Source of the DNA: a virus
Reading direction: 5' to 3' (one strand)
DNA length: 25,196 nucleotides
IMG/VR virus record: IMGVR_UViG_3300035661_000313
Span: 1-25,196 of that record
Shown: piece after piece, positions 952-20,425 of the stretch
How positions within the stretch are numbered: position 1 is the stretch's first letter
Layout: the number at the start of each line of letters is the position of its first letter
Notes under the pieces: generated by a model
Told to the model about the DNA's origin: nothing
Seen by the model: the letters and a program-made list of their open reading frames with translations, nothing else
Database searches by the model: none
Program-made: the position numbers and the translations under genes

Positions 952-3489
952 ATGTCCATCAACAACTTCAAGCCCTTTGCAATCGCGGTCGGCTCCCGCG
1001 TCATGGACCAGACTACGTGGGAGTCCCAGGATGGCCTGGTCTACGGCTTTCCTGCTGGCATTCTGACCAAGGAGCTGTTGAACAAGGCCATTCGTCAGCC
1101 TAGCGTGATCGCTGCCGCCATCGCGCAGTATGTGGTCAATCGGACCGGCTCTGATGTGCTCGACAATGGCGACATCAGTACGCTGATCACTCAAATGACC
1201 ACGGCCTTTGGGTCTGGTGGGGGTGGGCCCGGCGCCGCTGCGCAGTTGCTGAGTCTACGAGCCACTGGGTTCGCATTCGTGTTCTTGGATGCAGCCGCCA
1301 CAACCACGGCGAGCCCGACCATCACGTTCACGGCGGATCTTCAGAACGTCACTGGCACGGTCACCTTCTCGGCTCAAGCCTACGATGCGGCTGGCACGGC
1401 ACTCGGGTCGGTCACGCTAGGCGGCACTTCTCCCAATGCTACGATGACGGCCACGCAGTTCGTGGCCCACGCCGGCACCCGCAAGGTCATCGTCACTGCG
1501 ACGATCCCAGGCGCGGGCGGCAGCACACTCACGGATCTGTTCTCGGTCTACCGGGCGGACGGCGGCTCTGATGCCATTCAGGCTCGATTGACCAACGAGG
1601 CTCATACGGTGGCCTCTCTCGCTGACGGAACGGTGACGAGCTACTCCGGCGCGAGCGGGGTGAATGAGGTCTACAAGGGGCTGGCTCTTCTCTCCAGCGT
1701 CACGACCCCGTCAGTATCCTTCTCGCTGGTTGGCTACACTGGCTTCAACACGACCTACCCGGCCGCGCAGGCTGGTATCACCATCAACTCGACGACTGGG
1801 GCCTACAGCGTTACCGGCGGGATGAATGCGGTCAACGCCACAGTGACCATTCGGGGCACCTTGAGCACCGGTCAAACTATTGACTCGATCTTCAGCCTGG
1901 CCAAGTCAATTGCTGGATTGGCTGGCCCGGCTGGCACCGCCCCGTTCTGTGCGGTGTCGGCCTCACCCAGTCAAGCGTTCATTACCCCCTCGGACTCCAC
2001 GATTCCCGCGCCCACCTCGATCACGATTACTGCAACCACGGCCAACATCCCGAGCCCGACATTCGTGTGGCAAGTGGATGGAGTCACGCAGGTCGGGGTC
2101 ACCACCGGGGTCTTCAATCTGGCCTCCTTCCCGTCTGGCACCACGAAGATCGTTAAGTGCACGGCCACCGGGTCTGACGCAAGCACGTCCTTTGACATCG
2201 TCAGCATCTACAGCTTGAAGAGCGGGGACAACGCCTTCAACTTGATGATGTCCAACGAAAACCAGTCGGTCTCGTGCGACTCGTCTGGAACTCCCAAGGC
2301 TGGCGCGGCTAACCTGACAACGCAGTGCTTCCTCATCAAGGGTTCGGTTACGCTCACCACCGGCGTGACGTGGTCCATTGCAGCGAACTCCGGCTTCACC
2401 GGACAGTCTGTGAGCGGAACAGGTGTGCTCACCACCACTGGTATCACCACGCTCTTTGCCTCCTGCACCGTGCAGGCCACGTACAACGGGCAAATCTACC
2501 AAAAGGTTTTCACTGCGAACAAGGTGCTTGATGGGGCTAGCGGAACGGGGATCCAGGGCTTGCGCGGATCGCTCCAGGGCTACTCGGCAAGCGTGTCTCC
2601 TGCTCAGTACATGGCGGGCACTGCCTGGAATGCTTTAAGTGACGACTTTTCCGCATCCACCGTCATTTGGTTAATGCTTGGGAACTCAGGCACCCCGGTC
2701 AGCAACGCCCACTTGCGCATCGGCGACACGGTCACGCTGAAGAACGCGGCAGGCACGGCAGCTGATACACGCTTTTGGTCTGGCAGCTCCTGGCTCCCTC
2801 CTGGCACCTTCGTGAGTGGTAACGTAGTTGTGGGTGGGACGATCTCCGGGCAGACCAACCTTAACATCACCGGATTTGCTCAGATTGAAGGCTATCAAGC
2901 GATCGGTCTTACTGACTTTATCAACGGAAGTACGTGGATAGTTAACGCGGCCGTGACTGGAAACATTCAACAAGGGGCTATCAATGGGAACACGGTGATT
3001 GGAGTCTGTGGGCGCACTGGTAACACCAACGGGGCCGGCGTCTATGGGTACAGCACGCTCACCACTGGTGGCTATGGGGTGGTTGGGCGCGCTGGTATCG
3101 CTGGGGTACTAGGCATGGCTGGACCAATGAACGGCTCGGCTGGGGTCGCTGGGCAAGCTCTGCTCAGCACTCCATTTGGTCAAACGACATACGGTGGGTC
3201 CTTCTCCGGCAACGGAGCCAACACGATAGCCTTGACAGCGGATTCTTCGGGAGGAGATTTGGCCGCCATATTTCACGGGCCAGTGACAATGAGCACGGGG
3301 ACGTTCAGCGCGGTAAACTCGCTTATGCAGGTGGCCAACCTCGATATCCGGCAAGGATCTGCCAGTGGTTCAGCGGCGTGGAACCTACCCGGCGCAGGCA
3401 CCAAGCCAGGAAGCTCCACCGCTGGGGTCTTCGTGCCCATGTACATGAACGGGGTGCTCGGTGATGTGCTGTGGTGGCCCCGCAACTAA
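952..3489 (+). CDS. Large tail-tip/fibre protein with Ig-like repeats
   Basis: An 845-residue protein, probably the main host-contact fibre or tail-tip protein. Residues 1-90 repeat the N-terminal module of the preceding collar protein, which suggests a shared attachment to the baseplate. The middle (about 100-580) is rich in Ser, Thr, Gly and Val, in strand-forming blocks typical of Ig-like tail domains. Around 600-640, the segment SWLPPGTFVSGNVVVGGTISG matches the style of the C-terminal region of lambda gpJ-like proteins. From about 670 the protein is glycine-rich with short GVYGYS/GVVGRAG/GVLGMAG motifs, compatible with a receptor-binding tip built from glycine-rich turns or a beta-helix. 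It ends in a hydrophobic LWWPRN. The ATG at 952 has AAGGAA at 941-946 upstream. Function is inferred from architecture and position; no chaperone-type cleavage motif was recognised. Confidence 0.82.
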   Translation: MSINNFKPFAIAVGSRVMDQTTWESQDGLVYGFPAGILTKELLNKAIRQPSVIAAAIAQYVVNRTGSDVLDNGDISTLITQMTTAFGSGGGGPGAAAQLLSLRATGFAFVFLDAAATTTASPTITFTADLQNVTGTVTFSAQAYDAAGTALGSVTLGGTSPNATMTATQFVAHAGTRKVIVTATIPGAGGSTLTDLFSVYRADGGSDAIQARLTNEAHTVASLADGTVTSYSGASGVNEVYKGLALLSSVTTPSVSFSLVGYTGFNTTYPAAQAGITINSTTGAYSVTGGMNAVNATVTIRGTLSTGQTIDSIFSLAKSIAGLAGPAGTAPFCAVSASPSQAFITPSDSTIPAPTSITITATTANIPSPTFVWQVDGVTQVGVTTGVFNLASFPSGTTKIVKCTATGSDASTSFDIVSIYSLKSGDNAFNLMMSNENQSVSCDSSGTPKAGAANLTTQCFLIKGSVTLTTGVTWSIAANSGFTGQSVSGTGVLTTTGITTLFASCTVQATYNGQIYQKVFTANKVLDGASGTGIQGLRGSLQGYSASVSPAQYMAGTAWNALSDDFSASTVIWLMLGNSGTPVSNAHLRIGDTVTLKNAAGTAADTRFWSGSSWLPPGTFVSGNVVVGGTISGQTNLNITGFAQIEGYQAIGLTDFINGSTWIVNAAVTGNIQQGAINGNTVIGVCGRTGNTNGAGVYGYSTLTTGGYGVVGRAGIAGVLGMAGPMNGSAGVAGQALLSTPFGQTTYGGSFSGNGANTIALTADSSGGDLAAIFHGPVTMSTGTFSAVNSLMQVANLDIRQGSASGSAAWNLPGAGTKPGSSTAGVFVPMYMNGVLGDVLWWPRN

Positions 3490-3701: not shown

Positions 3702-3989
3702 ATGCCGGACACTCGTGATCGCGCGCACCCAGGCCCGGACATGAGCAATCGAGACTTCGATGCCCTCGTTGCCGCGGTGCACGAGGCGATGGAGCGCGGT
3801 TTTCGCGGCCGCCTCCTTTCTGACAAGCAAGTGGCCTGGGTAGAACTCGCCATCGAACGTGAAGCGCAGAGCATTGCGTTTCGTCGGGCGGTGATAGAGA
3901 AAACATTGACGGGCCTACTCTGGGCTGGCATCGCTGGCGGTGGCGCGCTGGTCATGGCTTACCTCAGAGCCCACGGCTGGAAAGACTGA
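3702..3989 (+). CDS. Small single-TM protein, candidate holin or spanin-like
   Basis: A 95-residue protein with a charged, helical N-terminal two thirds and one clear membrane segment near the C-terminus (about residues 69-87, TGLLWAGIAGGGALVMAYL), followed by a short RAHGWKD tail. A perfect AGGAGG at 3688-3693 sits 8 nt before the ATG at 3702. An internal ATG at 3741 (MSNRDFD) is possible but lacks as good a site. It is placed directly before the endolysin gene with a 3-nt gap, the usual location of a holin or other lysis helper. A long cytoplasmic-type amphipathic segment before one C-terminal TM is unlike classic multi-TM holins, so the role is an inference from position. Confidence 0.7.
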   Translation: MPDTRDRAHPGPDMSNRDFDALVAAVHEAMERGFRGRLLSDKQVAWVELAIEREAQSIAFRRAVIEKTLTGLLWAGIAGGGALVMAYLRAHGWKD

Positions 3990-3992
3990 CCA

Positions 3993-5255
3993 ATGGCCAT
4001 CTCGCAATATGCCCGCGCGCTGCTCAAGGTACTCGAAGGGCGGCGGCTCAAGGCCTACCCAGACCCAGCCACCGGGGGAGAGCCCTGGACCAACGGCTAC
4101 GGGCATACGGGCGGGGTCAAGGCCGGTGAAACCATCGACGACGCCCAGGCAGAAGCCTGGCTCGACGAAGACATCGCAGCGGCTGAGGCCATCGTCGACC
4201 GGTGGGTGACCGTCAAGCTCACTACGGGCATGCGAGATGCGCTGATCTTGTTCATCTTCAACATTGGCCCAGGCGTCCAAGGCCAGAAGGACGGGTTCGT
4301 GTGGTTGAAGAACGGTGACCACTCGACTCTTTTGACCAAGCTGAACGCCGGCGACTACGTGGGGGCCTCGGCAGAGTTCCCCAAGTGGGATAAGGCCGCG
4401 GGCAAGCAGATGGACGGGCTTCATCAGCGCCGATTGAAGGAACAAGCCCTGTTCTGCTCTGGTGGCTTCCAAGGCCAGGCCGCAGACCCACCCCAGGCGC
4501 CCGCAGGATGGCCTCAGGATGCGACGATCGTCCCTGAACCCACCCTACCCCCCACCCCAACGCCGAAAATCGCTCCTAGCGGCTTCCCGGCCGGTGAAGG
4601 TGAACCACAAACCGAAGCCCCTGAAGGAGCCGACCCCATGACTACCGTCTCTGATGTCGTTGACAGCCCTATCACCAAGTTCCTGTTGGCCGCAGTGAAC
4701 CCGATCCTCGGCATCGTGCCTGAGATCGCGCACATCTTCATTGACAAGCAGGGCACCACGGTCCCCGAACGCAATGTGGCCGCTGCGACCAAGCTGGTCC
4801 AGGTCGCGCAATCAGCCCTCAAGGCGGCTGGCCTAGACGGATCCAACGCCCAGGCCGTCGTGCAGTCGATCTCCACCAGCCCAGAAGCGGCGAAGGTCGT
4901 GCGTGAAGCCGTGATCTCCTCGTACTTCGAGCTGACGCAGATGGGCGGTGGCCTTGAAGCGGCTCGGTCTGCCGATCTTCAGTTCGTCACGGCCCTGGCC
5001 AAGGAGCCATGGTACTTAGTCTTCAAGTCGCCCAGCCTGATCATGGGCTGCTTGTTGCTGCCACTGGTCTACTTGATCGTGTTGAACCTGATCGGGGTCC
5101 TGGGGACTGCGACTTGGTCGCCTGACGCGCGGGCCGCACTCGCTGGTGCGATCTCCGGGTCGATCGTGGGTGGCCTGGTGGGCTACTACTACGGCCAGAC
5201 CACCACACGCAACCGGTCGGTGGCCCCCGCCGAGACCACAGCCTCCGCGAGCTAG
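3993..5255 (+). CDS. Endolysin: GH24 lysozyme fused to C-terminal membrane domain
   Basis: A 420-residue protein. Residues 1-150 are a T4-type lysozyme (muramidase): the catalytic Glu-Asp-Thr triad is visible as E15 in LEGRRLKAY, D24 in YPDP and T33 in WTNGYGHT, followed by ALILFIFNIGPG and the C-terminal helix region QRRLKEQALF. Residues about 165-215 are a Pro-rich linker (PTLPPTPTPKIAP). Residues 216-345 are soluble and helical, and two hydrophobic segments follow at about 349-370 and 380-401, ending in a polar TTTRNRS tail. Normal lysozymes of this class are about 150-170 residues, so more than half of the protein is extra. An in-frame ribosome site and ATG before residue 216 suggest a second product from the same frame. 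There is no N-terminal signal sequence. The gene ends in an overlap of CTAG with the convergent gene. Confidence 0.87.
   Translation: MAISQYARALLKVLEGRRLKAYPDPATGGEPWTNGYGHTGGVKAGETIDDAQAEAWLDEDIAAAEAIVDRWVTVKLTTGMRDALILFIFNIGPGVQGQKDGFVWLKNGDHSTLLTKLNAGDYVGASAEFPKWDKAAGKQMDGLHQRRLKEQALFCSGGFQGQAADPPQAPAGWPQDATIVPEPTLPPTPTPKIAPSGFPAGEGEPQTEAPEGADPMTTVSDVVDSPITKFLLAAVNPILGIVPEIAHIFIDKQGTTVPERNVAAATKLVQVAQSALKAAGLDGSNAQAVVQSISTSPEAAKVVREAVISSYFELTQMGGGLEAARSADLQFVTALAKEPWYLVFKSPSLIMGCLLLPLVYLIVLNLIGVLGTATWSPDARAALAGAISGSIVGGLVGYYYGQTTTRNRSVAPAETTASAS
4638..5255 (+). CDS. Possible internal-start product: membrane domain, holin-like, 205 aa
   Basis: Within the endolysin frame an AAGGAG at 4624-4629 lies 8 nt before an in-frame ATG at 4638, right at the end of the Pro-rich linker. 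Translation from it gives a 205-residue protein starting MTTVSDVVDSPITKFLLAAV, with a helical soluble part and two C-terminal membrane segments (LIMGCLLLPLVYLIVLNLIG and AALAGAISGSIVGGLVGYYY). This layout resembles 3TM-type phage/GTA holins (first hydrophobic stretch near the start, then a hydrophobic pair). The site is stronger than those of many separate genes in this window. Either a true second start exists, or a formerly separate holin gene has been joined to the lysozyme. Whether it is used cannot be seen from sequence. Confidence 0.45.
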   Translation: MTTVSDVVDSPITKFLLAAVNPILGIVPEIAHIFIDKQGTTVPERNVAAATKLVQVAQSALKAAGLDGSNAQAVVQSISTSPEAAKVVREAVISSYFELTQMGGGLEAARSADLQFVTALAKEPWYLVFKSPSLIMGCLLLPLVYLIVLNLIGVLGTATWSPDARAALAGAISGSIVGGLVGYYYGQTTTRNRSVAPAETTASAS

Positions 5256-17708: not shown

Positions 17709-17914
17709 CGCTTCTTGGCGTTGAGGGTCGGGGCGCGCTTGGGGACCTTGCGGCCAGCCAGCGGAGACTTCGGCTTCAGGATGTTGTGGTGCTTGTCGGT
17801 GTAGTCTAGGAACGACACCAAGAGCTTTGGGTGGCCGGCCTCAAGCAGGCCGCAGGAGTAGCCATTGGCCCCGTGGAGGTCGGTGGCCGATTGAACAAGG
17901 TAGATCGTGGTCAC
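17705..17914 (-). CDS. Small protein like the DpdA N-terminal segment (copy A)
   Basis: A GTG at 17914 overlaps the dpdA-like stop as GTGA and has a GAGGAG site 8 nt upstream, giving a 69-residue product starting MTTIYLVQSATDLHGANGYS. Longer in-frame readings begin inside dpdA and are rejected. The core CGLLEAGHPKLLVSFLDYTDK resembles the N-terminal unit of the DpdA-like protein and of the next small gene. The tail is very basic (KPKSPLAGRKVPKRAPTLNAKKR), as in nucleic-acid-binding peptides. It lacks the Asp motif of transglycosylases, so it cannot be catalytic on its own. It could be a partner or decoy subunit of the DpdA enzyme, or simply a leftover duplication. Confidence 0.6.
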   Translation of the reverse strand: MTTIYLVQSATDLHGANGYSCGLLEAGHPKLLVSFLDYTDKHHNILKPKSPLAGRKVPKRAPTLNAKKR

Positions 17915-18846
17915 AGCAGGGCTCCTCGACGAAGGGTGTTCTTCTCGAACGGGCGGGTAGCCTTCGCCTCGCTCACCATCTTGAAGAACATGACATTGCA
18001 GGTGGCTCGGTGGTAGTAGCTCTCCGTGACCTCCTCGTAGGTCTTGCCGCAGAAGGTCAGCCAACGCAGCAGGATCGCTCTCATTGCGCCCGACATCGAG
18101 TTGGAGTGCTTACCCCCTGCGCTCTGCTTCGGGTTGCGGTCTGAGACCGATATGGTCGACGGCACCTCGTCGAACACGAACTCACCGTTGCGCATGGCTG
18201 GTAGGTAGACCGATCCACTCGCGGTGATCTTGATCCACGTGGTCGAGTCGATGCTATACCACGGGTAGCGGAAGATGAGCGGCACGGCGGTCATCCCGAA
18301 GCCGTGGGTCTTCACGACGGGCAGGCCGGCGTCATCAGTGATGCGGGCGAACACTCGATCAAGCCAGGTGCGCCGTGGGCCCCCAGGGATGCCCACGAGG
18401 CCACCAATGCCGATGTAGTCGCAGCCATAGTCCAGCATGCGTTCGAGGAAGCGTGGCTCCTCGCCGTAGTGGTAGACGGGCAGGGGGTCGAGCCCCTCAT
18501 TGCGCATGTAGAGGAAATTCACCCAGGACTGCTCGGCGGCCTCGTTGCGTTCACGCGGGGTGGCCGATCGCCCAGGCGCGCCGGGGATCACATCGAGGCT
18601 GGCGTAGACCTCGATCAATTCGATGTTGGCTCGGATGAACTCGCAATACTCGTCGAGGTCAATGACGGTGCCTCTTGACCACGCCGAGTAAGCCCCGGAG
18701 TCAAGAAAGAAGCGGAACTTATCAGGGGTGATCATGAGTTGTAGTCGTGAGGTTTCAACGAAGCTGCCTAAGTGGATGGGGAAGCCACATTCACTCAAGC
18801 ACCGGCGTCGCCAGGGGTGAAGCGCGGTGCAGAGCCAGGTCAGCAT
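17911..18846 (-). CDS. dpdA: DpdA-like DNA transglycosylase (7-deazaguanine insertion)
   Basis: A 311-residue TIM-barrel-type protein related to tRNA-guanine transglycosylase. The first catalytic aspartate is in FFLDSGAYSAWSRG (D49), matching the DSGGF motif of TGT. The barrel continues with VYASLDVIPG (about 80-89), YIGIGGLVGIPGG (about 144-156) and HGFGMTAVPLIFRYPWYSIDSTTW, whose D200 is in the position of the TGT nucleophile. The TGT zinc-binding cysteines are absent, as expected for phage DpdA. In this family the enzyme exchanges guanine in DNA for preQ0 or a derivative. queC and folE lie directly upstream. The ATG at 18846 lacks a clear ribosome site but follows a structured gap; the N-terminus matches the two small downstream proteins. 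An alternative start at 18735 would remove that module. Confidence 0.8.
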   Translation of the reverse strand: MLTWLCTALHPWRRRCLSECGFPIHLGSFVETSRLQLMITPDKFRFFLDSGAYSAWSRGTVIDLDEYCEFIRANIELIEVYASLDVIPGAPGRSATPRERNEAAEQSWVNFLYMRNEGLDPLPVYHYGEEPRFLERMLDYGCDYIGIGGLVGIPGGPRRTWLDRVFARITDDAGLPVVKTHGFGMTAVPLIFRYPWYSIDSTTWIKITASGSVYLPAMRNGEFVFDEVPSTISVSDRNPKQSAGGKHSNSMSGAMRAILLRWLTFCGKTYEEVTESYYHRATCNVMFFKMVSEAKATRPFEKNTLRRGALL

Positions 18847-18940: not shown

Positions 18941-19510
18941 TTATCGGCCCAACGCAATCAGGTTCAAGAACTCGGCGCGAGTCTCGGGCTTCGCCTTGAA
19001 TACCCCCCGCAGCGCGGAAGTGGTCGTGTCTACATTGGGCATCTTGACGCCGCGCGTGGCCATGCAGAAGTGCTTTGCCGTGATGACCACGCCGACCCCA
19101 ACAGGGTCCAGGACATCATTGATGGCGTCCGCGATCTGGTTGGTAAGCCGCTCCTGGACCTGCAAACGACGCGAATAGGCATCGACCACCCGTGCCAGCT
19201 TGCTGATCCCCACGATGCGCCCGTTAGGGATGTAGGCGACATGCGCCAGGCCGATGATGGGAGTGATGTGGTGCTCACAGTGAGACTGAACGGGGATGTT
19301 GGTCAGGAGGACCATCTCGTCGGCCTTCTCGGCGCCGTCAGAGAAGTCCTTGCGGAGAAGTTCCAGCGGGTCGATGGCGTAGCCAGCGAACCACTCTCCC
19401 CAGGCGCGCACGACCCGGTCAGGGGTGTCGAGGAGGCCTTCGCGTTGGGGATCGTCACCGATGTGGGCCATCATGCCTTTGATTGCATCTCGTGCATTGA
19501 AGAGGGTCAC
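18941..19510 (-). CDS. folE: GTP cyclohydrolase I
   Basis: A 189-residue enzyme for the first step from GTP towards 7,8-dihydroneopterin triphosphate, which enters either folate or 7-deazaguanine synthesis. Zinc ligands are visible as C78 and H81 in SHCEHH and C149 in [10 protein letters not shown]. Other family blocks are [49 protein letters not shown] and [12 protein letters not shown]. The GTG at 19510 is chosen because it forms a GTGA overlap with the queC stop and has GGGAG 8 nt upstream; the in-frame reading from 19573 lies in queC. Length is normal for the family (180-220). Position between queC and dpdA-like genes points to preQ0 synthesis rather than folate. Confidence 0.95.
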
Positions 19511-20355
19511 GCCGAAGCTCCCAGGTTGTAGTTCATCTTGGCGCGGAGGATGTCGTCGGAGAGCAGCAGGCACGATTCCTTGTTGCTGTAGTTCTCCGTG
19601 CGGGGCACCTCCATGAAGCCTTCACGGCAGGCCCTGATCACCAAAGGATCCGGAACGCCAGCCATCTCGAACCCGTGAGCCCGCAGCACGGAAGCGTGAT
19701 CCTTGCCCACCGGTGGATAGGCGCCGTCGTAGGCCGTGTGCGAGAAGGCCAGGGCCACGTAGGCGCCTTCCATCTCCATCGCCAGGTGAATCGAGTCCCT
19801 CTTGCTGAGGTTCATCAGTGGGGCGTAGATGCAGAACTCGCCGGTGCCTAGAGCTTCGTTGATCGTTGCTTCCTGAGTAGCGATAAAACTCTCACGGCAG
19901 TCTGGGTAGTTGGCGTTGTCGGCCTCGCACACGCCGGTGACAAGCGCGTTAATGCCCAGGCAGACGGCTCGGTTGGCGGCCAGGGTCAGGAACAGCGCGT
20001 TGCGCATCGGAACAAACGTCTTCTCGACCCGATCACCGATGATCGCCGCCATCGAGTCGTGGTCATCGTAGAGCTCAAGCACCTCGAACGCATTGGTCAG
20101 TGGGCTAGCGCCCTTCAGGATGGGGCCCAGCTCGACGATCTCATGGCTGGCCACGCCAGCGAGCTTTGCGACATCGCGTGCGGCCTGGATCTCGCGGCGA
20201 TGACGCTGGTTGTAGTCGAACGTGACCGCGTGCACTTCGGCGAAGTACTTCTTCGCCCAGAATAGGCAGGTGGTTGAATCTTGGCCGCCTGACAGAACCA
20301 CGAGGGCCTTATGTCGAGGGTGGCTGTTGACGGATCCGGGTTGAGTGTTGGGCAC
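19507..20355 (-). CDS. queC: QueC-like 7-cyano-7-deazaguanine synthase, zinc site lost
   Basis: A 282-residue PP-loop ATPase for conversion of carboxy-deazaguanine to preQ0. The ATP-binding SGGQDSTT is at residues 22-29, followed by [49 protein letters not shown] and [14 protein letters not shown], all typical of QueC. The four structural zinc cysteines of the family (C-x8-C-x2-C-x2-C) correspond to A208, V216, D219 and S222, so the zinc site is gone although the surrounding positions still align. A C-terminal extension of about 40 residues ([15 protein letters not shown]...NYNLGASA) is present. The GTG at 20355 is chosen for its AGGAG site 5 nt upstream. It opens the queC-folE-dpdA run after a terminator. 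Confidence 0.88.
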
Positions 20356-20391
20356 AATGGCTCCTGAGGTTAGGGGAAAGGTGGGGGCAAG

Positions 20392-20425
20392 AAAAAGGCC
20401 CCGCATGGATATATACGGGGCCTTT
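20392..20425 (-). terminator. Rho-independent terminator after the KOW-repeat gene
   Basis: On the minus strand a stem of about 10 bp (AAAGGCCCCG pairing with CGGGGCCTTT) has a loop of about 12 nt and is followed by a run of five T. It sits 25 nt past the stop of the KOW-repeat gene and about 37 nt before the queC start, so it separates two transcription units or sets their ratio by partial read-through. Confidence 0.85.

Follow-up and report, generated by a model that had tools for sequence, protein, structure and literature searches.

Evidence from sequence comparison for a probable two-product phage lysis gene: an endolysin-holin fusion with a free holin nested in frame

Results

Lysozyme, linker and membrane unit in one reading frame

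The window (the whole stretch of DNA analysed here, a virus record of 25,196 bases) carries late genes on its plus strand that end at the ORF 3993-5255 (Table 1). The 420-aa product of this ORF matched PF00959 (Phage_lysozyme) over aa 14-150 with an E-value of 8.8e-35; at 120 bits against a cut-off of 22.3, the criterion for a GH24 enzyme was met. It also matched the endolysin family PHROG_7 (E 1.4e-48). E15, D24 and T33, which we take to be the catalytic residues of the window lysozyme by analogy with GH24 enzymes, are invariant across the 8 GH24-type fusions described below. A linker of about 55 residues, about one quarter of them Pro, lies between the enzyme and M216. Codon 216 is situated at the domain boundary and specifies the first residue of a 205-aa membrane unit; the 8-nt spacer between AAGGAG and the ATG at 4638-4640 reads CCGACCCC. 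All clearly hydrophobic helices of the 420-aa ORF come after M216.

Table 1. Features of the fused lysis gene and of the gene directly upstream
Feature	Position	Strand	Basis
Gene for 95 aa directly upstream, its C-terminus weakly hydrophobic, stop codon 3 nt ahead of the ATG of the fused gene	3702..3989	+	
Fused endolysin-holin ORF, 420 aa (long product)	3993..5255	+	ORF list; PF00959, PHROG_7; same in-frame architecture in 35 other loci
GH24 lysozyme catalytic domain, aa 14-150	4032..4442	+	Pfam match
Pro-rich linker, aa 161-215	4473..4637	+	Sequence; hypervariable between loci; pLDDT <50
Internal Shine-Dalgarno (SD) AAGGAG, 8 nt ahead of the internal ATG	4624..4629	+	Anti-SD pairing -8.0 kcal/mol; kept in relatives
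Internal in-frame start ATG, M216	4638..4640	+	Stand-alone TeaA-like genes start at the homologous Met
TeaA-like holin unit, 205 aa (short product), stop codon included	4638..5255	+	Profile alignment with TeaA family
Hydrophobic N-terminal helix of holin unit, unit residues 11-26, amphipathic or TM	4668..4715	+	AF2 helix; hydropathy
TM helix 1 of C-terminal hairpin, unit residues 132-151	5031..5090	+	AF2 helix; hydropathy 2.63
TM helix 2 of hairpin, Gly-rich, unit residues 162-190; basic tail after	5121..5207	+	AF2 helix; hydropathy 1.37

The AF2 model of the 205-aa unit (mean pLDDT 83) was all helical, with a C-terminal hairpin and a hydrophobic N-terminal helix; the latter overlaps a 19-residue segment (aa 232-250) with a hydropathy of 1.73 and might be a third membrane segment. 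Our criterion for a TeaA-type unit, a C-terminal TM hairpin in a helical protein, was met by AF2 and hydropathy. The model of the full-length 420-aa protein had a pLDDT of 54.5, and only its helices were used, with no further topology. The initial annotation of this locus had proposed that AAGGAG, spaced 8 nt from an in-frame ATG at 4638, allows a 420-aa and a 205-aa product to be made from one frame, and that the membrane part has two C-terminal TM segments. Coordinates and sizes held, as did the two segments, to which the N-terminal hydrophobic helix is to be added.

The window is syntenic with Edwardsiella phage vB_EpM_ZHS: the order of replication genes is the same and the DNA polymerases are 58% identical, whereas the lysis genes differ. 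In the equivalent place, vB_EpM_ZHS carries a stand-alone GH19 endolysin gene and two separate membrane-type genes whose products are visibly hydrophobic, where the window has the 95-aa gene and the fused gene. The 95-aa protein belongs to no Pfam or PHROG family and has no segment above the TM threshold; it may conceivably be an accessory lysis protein. A small gene of no known family directly precedes the fused gene in L001, L007, L033, L049 and L052 as well. In several relatives the product of the small upstream gene has a single TM helix, frequently combined with a long stretch that is helical or charged, and an antiholin, a second holin or a spanin-like partner are all possible. As the record is a fragment, a further holin may also lie outside the window. 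On the minus strand, genes for GTP cyclohydrolase I and QueC (18941-20406; PF01227, PF06508) suggest a preQ0-type base modification; the adjoining ORF 17911-18846 (minus strand), without a Pfam match, may encode a transferase.

The membrane unit is probably a TeaA-type holin

Searched on its own, the 205-aa unit of the window matched no Pfam or PHROG family and gave no direct database match to TeaA, the holin of Vibrio phage ICP1. The unit of one relative (L016), however, aligned with TeaA at 29% identity and 93% coverage (E 1e-6). A comparison of the family profile with that of the TeaA family by hhalign gave an alignment from end to end (E 4.9e-17, probability 98.8), in which the internal start is aligned with residue 1 of TeaA. 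PHROG_1544, the family of TeaA, was matched by 24 of 38 family members (best E 2.6e-12). Homology of the window unit to TeaA thus holds at the family level, via family profiles. The best BFVD structure match of the unit model was ORF20 of VHML, a TeaA homologue, but this match was weak (E 0.1).

Other searches were negative. The window unit found no match in cultured phages by tblastn, nor did the units of L001, L013, L023 and L057; only L016 reached TeaA. The L001 unit had no match in plasmids, solved structures searched with the family profile gave only chance-level GPCR or PhoU matches, and Foldseek against the PDB returned nothing. TeaA has been assigned to GTA_holin_3TM by remote homology (PMC7182436); we found no match to PF11351 (GTA_holin_3TM), up to E = 1, in the window unit, in the relatives tested or in TeaA itself.

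TeaA collapses the proton motive force and triggers lysis, as tested in Vibrio cholerae (PMC7182436). By homology, the membrane unit is probably a holin of the same type; permeabilisation and triggered lysis have been shown for TeaA only.

The fusion recurs with three unrelated endolysin classes

IMG/VR and GTDB genomes were searched with the membrane unit and duplicates were removed, which left 36 distinct fusions, the window included; near copies (L017, L034, L047 and L055) were not counted as extra loci. Another candidate, L018, was rejected: its MAG contig, labelled Saprospiraceae, seems to be a chimera of a repeat-protein gene and a GC-rich phage holin piece. Hosts that could be named were Burkholderiales (Azohydromonas lata, Pelomonas and a Burkholderiales MAG). 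The fusion of Azohydromonas lata NBRC 102462 (L021) is of the GH104 class and lies in a prophage.

The fusion is always in frame, and it involves three unrelated endolysin classes: GH24 (8 loci), GH19 (15) and lambda-R/GH104-like (13). Representatives of the classes were checked by Pfam and PHROGs; the GH104 label rests on resemblance to lambda R. Linkers vary widely in length and content, and in 27 of the 36 fusions at least one of the other frames is closed by a stop just before the start. The enzyme classes are intermixed on the holin tree, with 17 changes compared to 19.4 for shuffled labels, most branches of the tree being weakly supported. L033 (GH104) and L053 (GH24) have almost identical linker DNA, and the segment TACTCACAGGAGG before the ATG is common to L006, L008, L015, L035 and L040, which between them represent all three enzyme classes. 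Because such nearly identical stretches are found across enzyme classes, the enzymes have probably been exchanged upstream of a module consisting of linker, ribosome site and holin. In L015, L016 and L057, the N-terminal holin part is the same, but the TM hairpin is divergent, ends with a WFGSS/WLGSS-type motif and is closer to TeaA; possibly, the hairpin is exchanged too.

The internal start signal is conserved in the relatives

AAGGAG-N(4-9)-ATG occurs twice in the window, and 0.94 occurrences are expected by chance. The motif of the window alone was therefore rejected as evidence, and the case rests on the relatives. Within the window, predicted anti-SD pairing is -8.0 kcal/mol at 4638 compared to -3.3 at the gene's own start (3993).

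The boundary carries ATG in 31 fusions and GTG in 4; the remaining one (L044) has only ATT there. An SD of -5 kcal/mol or better is present at the boundary in 34 of 36 fusions (94%), whereas the same holds for 16% of 689 other in-frame starts in the same ORFs and for 18.5% of upstream linker codon positions. Boundary SDs were stronger than those of the 689 other starts (Mann-Whitney p about 1e-20); the 36 loci are related rather than independent, so that p-values overstate independence and this is not a strict probability. Of 35 loci for which main starts were assigned by hand, a few perhaps wrongly, 27 have a stronger SD at the internal start than at the main one. L041 and L051 have a weak SD at the boundary. 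The only fusion without ATG, GTG or TTG there is L044 (2362-3537), in which ATT follows TAGGAG and an ATG 13 codons past the boundary has a weak SD; L044 may initiate at ATT, or the short product may have been lost. Fused relatives without ribosome site and ATG had been named in the initial annotation as evidence that would refute an internal start; the start codon, as found here, is kept in 35 of 36 fusions and a good SD in 34.

Conservation of the SD could in part reflect the encoded peptide. At fourfold-degenerate sites of the holin part, identity is 0.41 compared to a random expectation of 0.35, which is close to saturation. Nevertheless, the sequence at -11 to -7 is AGGAG, at about 0.8-1.35 bits for every position, against 0.1-0.6 bits over most of the linker. 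Relative to the reading frame, the SD takes each of the three possible phases (28, 7 and 1 loci), and the peptides it encodes differ among loci (KE, QE, PE, EG, KG, VG and WR); in the window it lies within P-E-G-A-D-P-M and is not in the phase that gives the usual K-E. Codon choice at the junction gave only weak evidence (p 0.018 for GAG over GAA, no enrichment of K or Q), therefore we relied on phase and saturation instead. Near-saturated synonymous sites, three phases and varied peptides indicate that the boundary SD is in all likelihood conserved at the nucleotide level. Most SDs are in one phase as [KQ]-E, so some contribution from conservation at the peptide level is possible.

The boundary site is also among the least structured places of the mRNA, at the median 95th percentile within the ORF and the 91st relative to nearby linker positions; base composition partly explains this, as the z-score against shuffled sequences was only +0.4. 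As a negative control, M4Lys, an endolysin with a C-terminal TM domain, has no internal SD start, so an internal start does not follow from a C-terminal TM region. The idea that internal starts are general to C-terminal-TM endolysins was accordingly dropped, with M4Lys the only one checked. Two in-frame initiation signals, both conserved, were required of a dual-start lysis gene; by sequence comparison this was met.

Separate genes in some relatives start at the homologous Met

In three loci of two lineages (L023/L055 and L054), the two halves are separate genes. The holin gene begins out of frame within the last 16 or 46 nt of a GH19 endolysin gene (L023:3010-3025, L055, L054:2914-2959), and its start is the homologous Met (M-V-P-F or M-A-P-F). 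This comparison had been proposed in the initial annotation, and its outcome favours the claim of an internal start. These loci are possibly intermediates between separate and fused forms.

A TeaA-like gene also lies directly 3' of a lysozyme, endolysin or peptidase gene in the cultured phages PBR31, VHML, MAR, 1.133.O, 1.270.A and 1.012.O, with spacings from a 1-nt overlap to a 15-nt gap. Such pairs indicate that this gene order is old and that the internal ATG is the counterpart of a true gene start. In Xanthomonas phage PBR31 (L063), the TeaA-like gene (2498-3046) is annotated as 'putative spanin', and a small separate 'holin' gene precedes the lysozyme gene.

Discussion

We interpret the ORF 3993-5255 as a nested, in-frame, two-product lysis gene encoding an endolysin-holin fusion and a free holin. 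This reading is likely and strongly inferred, in the absence of expression data. The fusion, the conserved internal start signal and the homology to a tested holin are established by sequence comparison; synthesis of the two proteins in infected cells, and their membrane topology, are inferred. The proposal in the initial annotation that one frame gives a membrane-anchored lysozyme and a holin-like protein is supported by the relatives and by the homology to TeaA.

Three other explanations were considered. The full-length fusion might be the only product that matters, as a C-terminally membrane-anchored endolysin of the Enc34/M4Lys kind, with the internal SD and ATG being a relic of a separate holin gene. 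Endolysins of this type lyse cells on their own if overproduced (PMC7143992, PMC8943055), and the ancestral holin start is indeed seen in the separate-gene relatives. A relic would be expected to decay, however, whereas SD and start persist in 34-35 of 36 loci, in all codon phases and with synonymous sites near saturation, and no internal SD start is found in M4Lys, which does not need one; we regard this explanation as very unlikely. Alternatively, the short holin could be the sole important membrane product and the fusion an unused by-product of tight overlap, the holin tail being tolerated. The out-of-frame overlap of the same two genes in L023, L055 and L054 and the usually stronger internal SD (27 of 35) are in line with this view. 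Against it, in-frame fusion is far commoner (36 loci versus three) despite widely varying linkers, and other-frame stops just before the start are frequent (27 of 36), therefore the joined frame itself seems to be favoured, and a mere by-product is unlikely.

It is also conceivable that the short product acts as an antiholin or regulator, the effector being either the long form or a different protein, for instance one encoded by the small upstream membrane genes. Several relatives have, ahead of the fused gene, a small gene for a protein with a TM segment, the antiholin gene arrA adjoins teaA in ICP1, and the long and short forms of lambda S have opposite roles (PMC9671378). But the short form matches TeaA end to end, TeaA is a holin and not an antiholin (PMC7182436), and the upstream 95-aa gene of the window lacks a segment above the TM threshold. 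This possibility appears very unlikely as well.

Under the preferred reading of a nested two-product gene, initiation at 3993 would produce the 420-aa GH24 endolysin with a flexible linker and a TeaA-type holin, and independent, internal SD-driven initiation at 4638 would produce the 205-aa holin alone. Both products would reside in the inner membrane through the C-terminal hairpin; the enzyme domain is inferred to be cytoplasmic (N-in, C-in) because of the basic C-terminal tail and the two TM helices. We speculate that the free holin forms lesions into which the endolysin-holin is built, and that triggering of the holin assemblies would then expose the tethered enzyme to the adjacent peptidoglycan. 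Overproduced M4Lys and Enc34 enzymes with C-terminal TM regions lyse cells (PMC7143992, PMC8943055), so there must be some way for an enzyme on a tether to get to the wall. The ratio of free to enzyme-burdened holin might help to set the time of triggering, as with the long and short forms of lambda S. Lysis timing by the ratio of two products, also put forward in the initial annotation, is plausible only, with no experimental data for it. In the long form of lambda S, export of TM1 is altered. By analogy, and as inference only, 215 residues of enzyme ahead of the hydrophobic helix after M216 would hinder export far more than the long form of lambda S does.

A bolder reading is possible, in which the long product is an enzyme-carrying antiholin that co-assembles with the holin. 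The enzyme domain would block or delay triggering until free holin suffices, and holes would open with the endolysin in place. If true, one gene would act as a lysis clock and deliver the enzyme as well, and this device would have been put together repeatedly from different classes of enzyme.

The window gene resembles several known systems, each in part. With TeaA of ICP1 (PHROG_1544) it shares homology over the whole unit, the start Met, the C-terminal hairpin and a FFFGS/YYYGQ-type motif; TeaA, however, is encoded by a separate 182-aa gene beside the antiholin gene arrA, whereas the holin of the window is fused to and nested in an endolysin gene. Like lambda S (S105/S107), it has two starts in one frame for a holin and a longer form, with timing by ratio possible (PMC9671378). 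The forms of lambda S differ by two residues and those of the window by a 215-residue enzyme plus linker, and no homology was found between lambda S holin and the window unit. In-frame internal starts with a shared stop are also known in two-polypeptide endolysins such as CTP1L and phi2638A (PMC9430671, PMC4777826, PMC12203907); unlike in the window, where the short product is a holin, these endolysins come from phages of Gram-positive hosts, and their short products are cell-wall-binding parts or other pieces of the endolysin. Internal starts were deemed unlikely in endolysins of Gram-negative hosts, which that survey left out (PMC9430671).

An N-terminal enzyme with a C-terminal TM region is shared with Enc34, M4Lys and Siskin endolysins (PMC8943055, PMC7143992, PMC6498227), of which that of Siskin is predicted to have two TMs, N-in and C-in (PMC6498227). 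The initial annotation had called a lysozyme with C-terminal TM segments uncommon, which held, although these are precedents. Unlike the window, their phages have a separate putative holin gene. The catalytic domain of M4Lys is unrelated to the GH24 enzyme of the window, and the TM unit of L001 showed no similarity to M4Lys (BLASTP E 0.66), so homology to the Enc34 type was not supported. Finally, Clostridium sporogenes has a TpeE-family protein in which a holin and its endolysin are naturally translated as one chain (PMC9527704); there, the holin comes first and belongs to another family, and no second start is described.

Dual-start holins, internal-start endolysins, a holin-first fusion and C-terminal TM endolysins are thus known separately. 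In the open-access literature searched, we found no published example of an endolysin-holin fusion with a free holin from a conserved nested start. The usual view is that lysis is timed by keeping endolysin and holin apart as separate actors. In the present set, dozens of phages have joined them in one frame that retains an internal ribosome-binding site, across enzyme classes. The arrangement would provide a simple test system, as one product can be removed by one codon change. It is also relevant to the questions of how a tethered endolysin gets to the wall and why membrane endolysins of the M4Lys type can lyse cells alone. Gene callers give one start per stop and would miss endolysin-nested holins, so that reports of 'no holin found' could often be mistaken. 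Two of a phage's main tools for bursting its host may come from a single gene.
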